Positions 1,135 to 28,278 of a DNA stretch of 32,295 bases are shown here, piece after piece (within the stretch, counting starts at the first letter, position 1; each line of letters begins with the position of its first letter). Source of the DNA: a virus. A program made the position numbers and the translations under genes. Location: positions 1 through 32,295 of the IMG/VR virus record IMGVR_UViG_3300035034_000385; one strand, given 5' to 3'. The notes beneath the pieces are model-generated. The model was not told the DNA's origin. It made no database searches and saw nothing but the letters and a program-made list of their open reading frames with translations.

Positions 1135-1212
1135 TGGTACATGGAGCGGGGGTCGAACCCGCAACTCAGGGATTTTAAGTCCCTTGCCTCTACCAGATTG
1201 GGCCACCCATGC
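1135..1212 (-). tRNA. tRNA-Leu (anticodon TAA) with a short variable loop
   Basis: The minus strand folds into a complete cloverleaf of 78 bases including an encoded CCA. The acceptor stem is GCATGGG/TCCATGT (7 pairs, two of them G-U), the discriminator is A, and the D-arm contains CAATCTGGTAGA. The anticodon stem AGGGA/TCCCT closes the loop CTTAAAA, giving anticodon TAA (reads UUA). The T-arm is GCGGG-TTCGACC-CCCGC. The anticodon arm and T-arm closely resemble bacterial tRNA-Leu(UAA), but the variable region is only GAGTT (5 bases) where bacterial tRNA-Leu normally has a long paired arm. It sits 5 bases after the glycosyltransferase stop. Confidence 0.92.
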
Positions 1213-25539: not shown

Positions 25540-28278
25540 ATGCAAATTCATCCATTTAATATAAGAGAGTTTGTAAAAGACAATAGAACTCTAGTCAAGA
25601 AATACATTAAAAAGAATACCTATGGAATTCGAATTGATGATATTGAGCTTGGCAATGCATACTATTATCAAAAAAATGAACAAATTCTGAATAAGAAAGA
25701 AAAACCAGAATATTCATTAATGCAGAAGCTTGAATATATTAAGTGTATGAAAGATTGTTCGTACTTCACTCAGAAGTATATTAAGATTATTTCTATTGAT
25801 GATGGTGTAATTCCCTTCAACCTATACGATTATCAGGAAGAACTATTAGATAAGTATCAGAACAACCGATTTATTATCACTCTACAAGCCCGGCAAACAG
25901 GTAAGATGATTGATCTTGATACACCAATCATGACACCAAACGGATTTGTTAAAAATGGTGATCTTAAAGTTGGTGATACAATTTATGGTAGAAATGGAAA
26001 GAAGACTGATGTTACGTTTATAAGTGAACAACGTAATGATATGAATCAATATGAACTTATATTTGATAATGGACAAAAAATAAAGGCGTGTGGTGAGCAT
26101 CTATGGGCGTTTAAATCATCAAACAAAAATAAATCAGAATATGTTCGTAATACAGAATACATGATTTCTGAGTTTGAAAATGTTAGAAAATATAAAACTC
26201 CCGGTAGCTTGTGGATTGATATTACAAAACCTTTGGAATTTGAAGCAAAAGAAGTTCCTATTGATCCATACACACTAGGTTTGTGGCTTGGTGATGGTGA
26301 TAATCAAGGCGGTTCTATCACTGGTCATATTGATGATTTTAACTTTTATAATTCGATATTACCAATTACGAAGGGTAAGTTTTCTCTGGATAAAAGAACT
26401 GAATCCACGGGTAAATTTAGAATTGATGGATTACATAAAAATCTCAGATTAGAAAACCTAACAAATAACAAACACATTCCTGATAACTATATCTATAATG
26501 ATATAGAAACACGAATTAATCTCATTCGTGGATTAATGGACTCCGATGGGTATTGTGCTAAAAATGGATCATGCGAATTTTACCAAAAATCAAAATCTCT
26601 TATTGATCAAGTCAGGTTAGTATTATCTACATTGGGTATAAAAACCACAATCAGAGAAAAATATGTCAAGGGGTATAATGATCCATATTATACTTTGGTG
26701 TTTTGTGTACCTGTTGATAAATTTGAACTATTCAAATTACCAAGAAAACTTGAAAGACAGCATAATTGTAAGTCTCATCCAAAAAATGAAAGAATTTATC
26801 TATCATCATACAAGAAATTAGATGATGATAAAAAGGTTTATATGCAGTGTTTAACTGTTTCTGATGAAGATCATATGTTTTTGTGTGGCGAAACACTGTT
26901 ACCAACACACAATACGCAGACAACCGCTGCTTATATACTTTGGTTCAACACATTCAATGATTCAAAAGACTCTGCTATTTTAGCTAACAGATTAGCACAA
27001 GCACAAGAAATCATGGAACGTGTGCAGATGTCTTATGAAAATCTACCCAATTTTTTGAAGTGTGGTGTATCTGAGTATAACAAGCGTTCAATGAAGTTCG
27101 CCAACTACTCAAAGATATTCTGTGCTACATCCACATCATCTTCTATACGTGGTAAATCTATTTCACTGTTATATATAGATGAGTGTGCCTTCCTACGTAA
27201 TGATATGGCTTTTTATGAATCCACTTACCCTGTAATTACATCTGGTAAGAATTCACAAGTTATCGTGTCATCTACTCCAAACGGGGCGCGTGGGTTGTTT
27301 TACAAGCTGTATACCGAATCCAGAGAAAACATTAACAAATACGTTAACCATAAAGTTACTTGGGATATGGTGCCGGGGCGTGATCTGGAATGGAAACAGG
27401 AACAGATTGCAAATACTTCGCAGGAACAGTTTGATCAGGAACATGAGGTTCAATTTAGAGGGTCAATCAACTCTCTTATATCAGGTAATGTTCTGATGAA
27501 CTTGGTTGAACGTTCACCAGAAGAAATAAAGAACGATGTAAAGATTTATTTTGAGCCGGAAGCTGGTCGTGTATATGCAATGATGGTTGATGTGAGTCGT
27601 GGCCTTGGTCAAGATTATAGTGCATTCGTTGTGTTTGATGTAACAGAAATGCCTTATAGAGTTGTTGCTACATATAGGAATAACAAAATATCCCCATTGT
27701 TATACCCATCTATTATATACTCAACTGCGACATACTACAATGAAGCAATGGTATTAGTTGAGATAAATGATATAGGTGAACAGGTTTCATCTATTTTGTT
27801 TGATGAATATGAATATGAAGAATTATTGATGACTAAATCAATCAAAGGCAGACAAACTATGTGGTTTGGTGCTGATTGTAAGCAGGGTGTGCGAACTACA
27901 ACACCTGTTAAGTCTGTTGGATGTTCGAACATTAAGTCTCTTATTGAGAATGAAAGAATTGAGCTTAACGATAAAACGATCATTGATGAGTTTGGTACGT
28001 TTGTCCCTAAAGGGAAAACCTATAAAGCCGATTCTGGTGCTAATGATGATATGGTTATGTGTTGCGTATTGTTTGGATGGGCAACAACTCAACAATACTT
28101 TAAAGATATGACCAATATAAACACTAGAGAAGACCTAATTAAACAAAGGGAAGATAATGAAGATTTGATGCCCTTTGGATTTATAGATAGTGATGATGAG
28201 GAAATAGAAAAACCAACTAATCCTTGGGGAATTGCAGAAGGGAAAGTTACAAGCGATTCTTTCTTTGATGGGTTTTGA
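25540..28278 (+). CDS. 17: large terminase subunit gp17 interrupted by an intein
   Basis: The 912-residue precursor consists of a 576-residue terminase (T4 gp17 is 610 aa) and a 336-residue intein. The ATPase domain has Walker A split as ARQTGK (ending at K122) and TQTT (from T459), Walker B LLYIDECAF (D547, E548) and the coupling motif SSTPNG. The nuclease domain has MVDVSRGLGQDYSAF, VEINDIGEQV and NDDMVM, matching the T4 triad D401, E458, D542. gp17 pumps DNA into the prohead through gp20 and cuts the concatemer. The unspliced protein lacks a working P-loop, so packaging depends on splicing. Reading frames are intact throughout. Confidence 0.95.
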   Translation: MQIHPFNIREFVKDNRTLVKKYIKKNTYGIRIDDIELGNAYYYQKNEQILNKKEKPEYSLMQKLEYIKCMKDCSYFTQKYIKIISIDDGVIPFNLYDYQEELLDKYQNNRFIITLQARQTGKMIDLDTPIMTPNGFVKNGDLKVGDTIYGRNGKKTDVTFISEQRNDMNQYELIFDNGQKIKACGEHLWAFKSSNKNKSEYVRNTEYMISEFENVRKYKTPGSLWIDITKPLEFEAKEVPIDPYTLGLWLGDGDNQGGSITGHIDDFNFYNSILPITKGKFSLDKRTESTGKFRIDGLHKNLRLENLTNNKHIPDNYIYNDIETRINLIRGLMDSDGYCAKNGSCEFYQKSKSLIDQVRLVLSTLGIKTTIREKYVKGYNDPYYTLVFCVPVDKFELFKLPRKLERQHNCKSHPKNERIYLSSYKKLDDDKKVYMQCLTVSDEDHMFLCGETLLPTHNTQTTAAYILWFNTFNDSKDSAILANRLAQAQEIMERVQMSYENLPNFLKCGVSEYNKRSMKFANYSKIFCATSTSSSIRGKSISLLYIDECAFLRNDMAFYESTYPVITSGKNSQVIVSSTPNGARGLFYKLYTESRENINKYVNHKVTWDMVPGRDLEWKQEQIANTSQEQFDQEHEVQFRGSINSLISGNVLMNLVERSPEEIKNDVKIYFEPEAGRVYAMMVDVSRGLGQDYSAFVVFDVTEMPYRVVATYRNNKISPLLYPSIIYSTATYYNEAMVLVEINDIGEQVSSILFDEYEYEELLMTKSIKGRQTMWFGADCKQGVRTTTPVKSVGCSNIKSLIENERIELNDKTIIDEFGTFVPKGKTYKADSGANDDMVMCCVLFGWATTQQYFKDMTNINTREDLIKQREDNEDLMPFGFIDSDDEEIEKPTNPWGIAEGKVTSDSFFDGF
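25906..26913 (+). mobile_element. intein with LAGLIDADG endonuclease, class 3-like
   Basis: Residues 123-458 of the gp17 precursor. It opens MIDLDTPIMTPNGFVKNGDL, a block A pattern but with Met instead of Cys/Ser, and ends LLPTHN before Thr+1. Block B ends GEHLW (W67 of the intein). Block F reads MQCLTVSDEDHMF, with Cys (C315) at the usual Asp position. Block G has Thr (T334) before His-Asn (N336). W, C and T at these places are the class 3 intein signature, in which the block F Cys is the first nucleophile. Two LAGLIDADG motifs, LGLWLGDGD (124-132) and LIRGLMDSDG (206-215), keep their acidic residues. Boundaries follow from homology of the flanks to Walker A. Confidence 0.92.

Follow-up and report, generated by a model that had tools for sequence, protein, structure and literature searches.

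The window, the whole stretch of DNA that was analysed, is a 32,295-base IMG/VR virus record with a G+C content of 36.9%. Its plus strand carries T4-type genes for baseplate, sheath, tube, portal and terminase, and among named phages Pseudomonas phage pf16 has the most similar portal (57% identity). The terminase large subunit (25540-28278, plus strand, 912 aa) has a LAGLIDADG_3 match at residues 325-387, followed by a terminase N-terminal match at residues 459-642, and the insert is probably an intein or a homing-endonuclease insertion. The gene considered here, a tRNA-Leu(UAA) gene at 1135-1212, is on the minus strand (the original prediction had given no strand), flanked by a glycosyltransferase-like ORF (1218-1883) and an ORF at 744-1142. 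The first ATG of the latter, also on the minus strand, is within the tRNA acceptor stem, so that the ORF overlaps the tRNA 3' end; starting at an internal Met about ten codons further on would avoid the overlap. The two minus-strand ORFs upstream of the tRNA (1218-2531), with PHROG matches to a glycosyltransferase (phrog_1962) and an alpha-2,3-sialyltransferase (phrog_4603), could possibly form a surface-sugar module. A second tRNA in the window, tRNA-Met(CAU) at 2912-2987, could be of the elongator Met or the Ile2 type.

ARAGORN called the gene at 1135-1212 as tRNA-Leu(taa), 78 nt long with its CCA and with the UAA anticodon at gene position 36, and the Rfam tRNA family RF00005 matched 1138-1212 over the full model (1-71) with 53.7 bits, compared to a gathering score of 29 (E 4.9e-9). 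Read 5' to 3', the first half is laid out as GCAUGGG UG GCCCAAUCUGGUAGAGGC A AGGGA CUUAAAA UCCCU and the second half as GAGUU GCGGG UUCGACC CCCGC UCCAUGU A CCA. The D-arm, GCCCAAUCUGGUAGAGGC (1186-1203), combines a leucine-type loop (A14, A15, G18G19, U20 and A20a) with a stem containing C12-G23 and C13, as assigned from the sequence and from position statistics. It is followed by the anticodon arm AGGGA-CUUAAAA-UCCCU (1168-1184), identical to the one originally predicted, in which the anticodon (1175-1177) comes directly after U33 in a 7-nt loop. The variable region (1163-1167) is exactly 5 nt, GAGUU, the U48 of which pairs with A15, while a class II tRNA would have at least 10 nt there forming an arm. 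The T-arm GCGGG-UUCGACC-CCCGC (1146-1162), the discriminator A73 (1138) and an encoded CCA (1135-1137) complete the molecule. The covariance match therefore leaves no long arm that had been misplaced, and the prediction of an otherwise complete tRNA-Leu(UAA) with a 5-nt variable region and encoded CCA was borne out.

The minimum-energy fold of this tRNA is not the cloverleaf (z -0.24). Covariance scoring is in favour of the cloverleaf and thermodynamics alone is against it, so free energy neither supports nor excludes a tRNA. The discrepancy would count in favour of a decayed, non-functional pseudogene carried passively by the phage, and we consider this explanation very improbable, as the acceptor, anticodon and T stems are fully paired (with G-U allowed), the conserved loop residues and the CCA are intact and the covariance score is high. 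Furthermore, relatives have stems that differ in sequence and are still paired, and the short form is found in every genome searched of one bacterial genus (see below).

To place the tRNA among others, 1256 ARAGORN tRNAs of at least 68 nt were collected, of which 1116 could be parsed (the unparsed were dropped) and 818 remained after near-duplicates were removed; one Leu tRNA with a 7-nt variable region was excluded from both the short and the long group. In E. coli, the leucine determinants are A73, A15-U48, G18G19, A20a and D-loop/T-loop contacts (PMC9976931). We scored five identity features, A73, A15-U48, A20a, U8-A14 and U54-A58, all of which are present in the window tRNA and are shared with bacterial class II tRNA-Leu(UAA), together with the anticodon and the leucine-type D-loop. 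Since the motif GGTAGA was part of the pattern used to find short forms, we base the statistics on identity and on the D-stem chiefly on 53 short Leu tRNAs outside this pattern; these came mostly from loci fetched for their short tRNAs and are phylogenetically non-independent. All five features were present in 51 of these 53, in 28/30 long Leu tRNAs and in 0/484 class I tRNAs of other isotypes. Among all short Leu tRNAs the count was lower (173/231), mainly because 39 of the 231 have G15-C48 instead of A15-U48, so leucine identity is not uniform across the short-armed family.

The original prediction had left room for charging with another amino acid, and several observations favour such an origin, in which a class I tRNA (of the Lys, Met or Phe type, for example) acquired a UAA anticodon, kept its old amino acid and became a missense tRNA. 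The variable region and C13, as well as A9 in most relatives, are class I-like, and a typical class I D-arm would need only a change of U12 to C and one inserted G to become the short-form D-arm. There is also a precedent in a human tRNA-Leu-CAA, which is described as a mutated tRNA-Met (PMC8450103). However, the five features co-occur in leucine tRNAs and in none of the 484 other class I tRNAs, and over all compared positions the profile score of the short Leu tRNAs was 55.5, compared to 38.6 for Lys, 37.6 for Tyr and 37.4 for long Leu. When core positions alone were used, long Leu (21.9) was indistinct from several class I isotypes, so it is the D-loop features and the nearest neighbours that carry the argument on ancestry. 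Once the short set is left aside, the most similar tRNAs are long-armed tRNA-Leu(UAA), with 78% and 77% identity over the compared positions, and in Curtobacterium the short form is the only UAA tRNA. A missense tRNA is thus very unlikely, and the window tRNA most likely functions as a leucine tRNA, which agrees well with the description of a minimised leucine tRNA put forward earlier.

An arm-less leucine tRNA is compatible with what has been reported on leucylation. In E. coli, neither the sequence nor the folding of the long arm correlates with leucylation, and tRNA-Leu variants stripped of the anticodon arm as well as the long arm are still active (PMC9976931). The same review nonetheless tabulates a large variable region as a bacterial leucine identity element, so even within this source the arm is not weighted in the same way throughout.

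That the tRNA has lost its long arm was right in outline and incomplete in two respects. The first is the D-stem (positions 20a, 21 and 22 are numbered after our own alignment, not after a database). Viral long and short tRNA-Leu(UAA) sets selected in the same way differ at positions 9, 12:23 and 13: the long forms with the same D-loop pattern have G9 and G12-C23 in 102/102 distinct sequences and G or A at 13 in 101/102, while among 79 distinct short forms C13 was found in 73, C12-G23 in 69 and A9 in 70. Bacterial class II tRNA-Leu(UAA), with a variable region of 11-21 nt, also has G12-C23 and G/A13, whereas the window tRNA has C12-G23, C13 and G21, and yet keeps G9. It shares with the short-armed set a variable region no longer than 6 nt, C13, C12-G23 and complementarity between positions 13 and 21.

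Of the 53 unselected short forms, among them UAG, CAA, GAG and CAG isoacceptors, 49 had this complementarity, compared to 6/30 long forms (Fisher p 1.7e-11); it is made up of C-G in 38 cases, G-U in six, U-A in three and A-U and U-G in one each. When position 21 was shuffled, 49 was reached in 0/20000 trials (mean 32.9); relatedness inflates this statistic, as the six G-U sequences closely resemble one another. Other possible partners of position 13 were complementary less frequently (position 22 in one, 44 in 13, 45 in 15, 46 in 28 and 47 in 29 of the 53). Positions 13 and 21 therefore probably form a fourth D-stem pair, leaving A22 unpaired. As the loss of the arm goes together with a remodelled D-stem, it is more than a deletion.

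The second respect is that the loss is not private to this phage and recurs in tRNA-Leu with UAG, CAA, GAG and CAG anticodons. A pattern that admits only a short variable region and includes the D-loop motif GGTAGA gave at least 120 matches in viral contigs, 116 of those listed being called tRNA-Leu(taa) by ARAGORN, and at least 117 in bacterial contigs, with 112 of those listed called likewise. A pattern search of L361 gave no match. The short arm is therefore present in relatives from at least 116 viral and at least 112 bacterial contigs. Short forms were also found in named phages of unrelated families: UAG and UAA in Bacillus phage P59 and Vibrio phage VspSw_1, UAA and CAA in Vibrio phage phi-ST2, UAG in Vibrio phage KVP40 and UAA in Klebsiella phage Shiner, with further carriers in Enterobacter KKP_3711, Cronobacter GAP31 and Serratia Kamaji. 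The genes of P59, KKP_3711, Shiner, GAP31, phi-ST2, KVP40 and Kamaji are 77-78 nt long, short-armed and of the same D-arm type as the window tRNA; they differ in belonging to other phage families and are annotated plainly as tRNA-Leu. Long tRNA-Leu genes were found in Pseudomonas phage Viktualia (85 nt) and in T5, which was rejected as an example of the short arm because its tRNA-Leu(UAG) in the stretch examined is 85 nt; no UAA tRNA gene was seen within that stretch.

One relative, the tRNA-Leu(UAA) in record L115, is about 80% identical to the window tRNA over 79 nt, and its acceptor stem is wholly different and yet paired. The GAGUU variable region is common to the window, L115 and Curtobacterium tRNAs. 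With this identity, the shared GAGUU and hundreds of relatives, the short-armed tRNA of the window is not a chance feature. A tRNA search was carried out on 25 records, namely L115 and 24 of the 32 portal relatives of the window phage (the other eight were left out), and tRNAs were found only in L115 and in L014, whose contig is the longest among the portal relatives and which carries a long-armed tRNA-Leu(UAA) of 84 nt. An explanation by host or lineage was therefore rejected, the short form not being a trait of the lineage of the window phage. Comparing L115 with the window proteins gave no match at E 1e-2 other than the tRNA stretches themselves. As L014 is long-armed and L115 has the tRNA in common with the window but no matching protein, the tRNA was probably acquired separately.

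Some other unusual tRNAs were seen. L115 has at 711-786 a tRNA called His(gtg) with a leucine-like D-arm (GGCGGAACTGATAGACGC), and the viral contigs L132 and L158 have tRNA-Tyr(GTA) calls with variable regions of 4 and 5 nt, which are short for bacterial tRNA-Tyr.

Short forms are also found in cellular genomes. In Curtobacterium oceanosedimentum (genome G001, locus L170), 46 Rfam tRNA matches were located and their loci examined; the UAG, CAG, GAG and CAA leucine tRNAs were all long, and the single UAA tRNA was short. Within the genus, a short UAA match was present in 60/60 genomes, six of which had one extra pattern match each. In 17 Curtobacterium loci, mostly syntenic, 74 G+C-rich ORFs with a total of 30,689 codons contained TTA twice, and the codon read by the short UAA tRNA is thus very rare there; it is possible that this tRNA is a bldA-like rare-codon tRNA without the arm. 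Neighbours of the tRNA in L170 are, among others, ORFs for a pyridine-nucleotide oxidoreductase and a ThrE-type exporter, no phage gene was seen in the two neighbours scanned, and the neighbourhood looks chromosomal.

Outside the genus, the strict GGTAGA pattern matched 1/296 genomes of the phylum, this being the genome on which the search was centred, and it does not support the idea that the form is common across Actinobacteria. A looser pattern gave short-looking matches, judged by eye, in at least 9/60 phylum genomes including the centre; out of the eight new ones, G082 and G080 were checked with ARAGORN. In Bacteroidota, three loci (L173, L270 of Allomuricauda and L198 of Candidatus Uzinura) have short-armed tRNA-Leu(UAG) or (UAA) with a classical leucine D-arm instead of the C12-C13 form, which suggests a separate loss of the arm.

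A few comparable tRNAs have been described. The animal mitochondrial tRNA-Leu(UUR) also has a short variable region and is leucylated without a long arm (PMC9976931); it is, however, organellar, charged by mitochondrial LeuRS and weak in its anticodon branch, whereas the window tRNA has well-paired stems and is encoded by a T4-like phage contig that also carries portal, sheath and baseplate genes. Mycobacterium mucogenicum and relatives carry a short-loop tRNA-Leu in a tRNA cluster that looks acquired and includes an HNH endonuclease gene (PMC6582537). That tRNA differs in being UAG and is given a single sentence, with no family, structure or distribution. Some short-armed Leu, Ser and Tyr tRNAs appear in a database-wide tree, their organisms not being named in the part of the source consulted (PMC2474678). 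With the terms searched in the open-access literature, we did not find the short-armed family, its D-stem change or the Curtobacterium case described, and the one direct remark was that on M. mucogenicum (PMC6582537). If our reading is right, the function of these tRNAs is ordinary and their structure unusual, and they are wider spread than the literature suggests.

Taken together, the gene very probably encodes a phage tRNA that accepts leucine and would read UUA, and UUG by wobble, during infection, as a member of a short-armed tRNA-Leu family scattered among prokaryotes and their phages. The host LeuRS would most likely charge it through A73, the corner formed by A15-U48, G18G19 and A20a, and the U8-A14 and U54-A58 tertiary contacts, none of which would need the long arm. 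Expressed, charged and decoding UUA and UUG in the infected cell, it would supply the phage with a decoder for its AU-rich genes; in the counted ORFs of the window, TTA makes up 136 and TTG 133 of 670 leucine codons. The loss of the arm is accompanied by a change in the D-stem core from G12-C23 to C12-G23 and from G/A13 to C13, and probably by the 13-21 pair, presumably restoring packing that the class II variable arm otherwise provides.

Why the arm went is a separate question, and one answer compatible with a phage-encoded leucine tRNA is that the arm was lost as a target of defence: host systems that cut or grip class II arms would fail on the phage tRNA, which would replace the depleted host tRNA. 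The variable loop of tRNA-Tyr is cut by Septu and retron-Eco7, and the resistance of the T5 tRNA-Tyr has been ascribed to its distinctive variable loop (PMC13096335); phage tRNAs have also been reported to escape nucleases through changes in the anticodon loop (PMC10264068). A viral scan with a gap-neutral pattern is consistent with this, since among the 120 matches listed 109 had a variable region of 11-21 nt and 11 were short, with no intermediates and none at 7-10 nt. However, a nuclease that cuts tRNA-Leu in the arm was not found in the literature examined, and evasion gives no obvious reason for a chromosomal, sole short form such as that of Curtobacterium. In addition, Ser tRNAs stay long (0/37 short), which a requirement of SerRS for the arm would explain, and Tyr tRNAs are short in only 2/19. 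Evasion as the cause is therefore unlikely. Similarly, we regard as improbable the wider proposal of a prokaryotic and phage structural class, without arm, with a 13-21 pair and with A22 unpaired, that is favoured in phages by defence evasion and permitted by LeuRS, unlike SerRS; its structural part is better supported than the part on evasion.

A 2023 review describes the long arm as universal except in animal mitochondria (PMC9976931). The phage short forms and the one that is the sole UAA tRNA of a Curtobacterium genome, with the same form across the genus, would correct this claim. Such genes may be given low scores by isotype models in which a class II arm is expected. Short tRNA-Leu would offer natural minimal substrates for LeuRS and would make it testable which features the synthetase needs and why a phage drops the arm, while the scattered family in phages and bacteria suggests that the long arm is dispensable for leucine.
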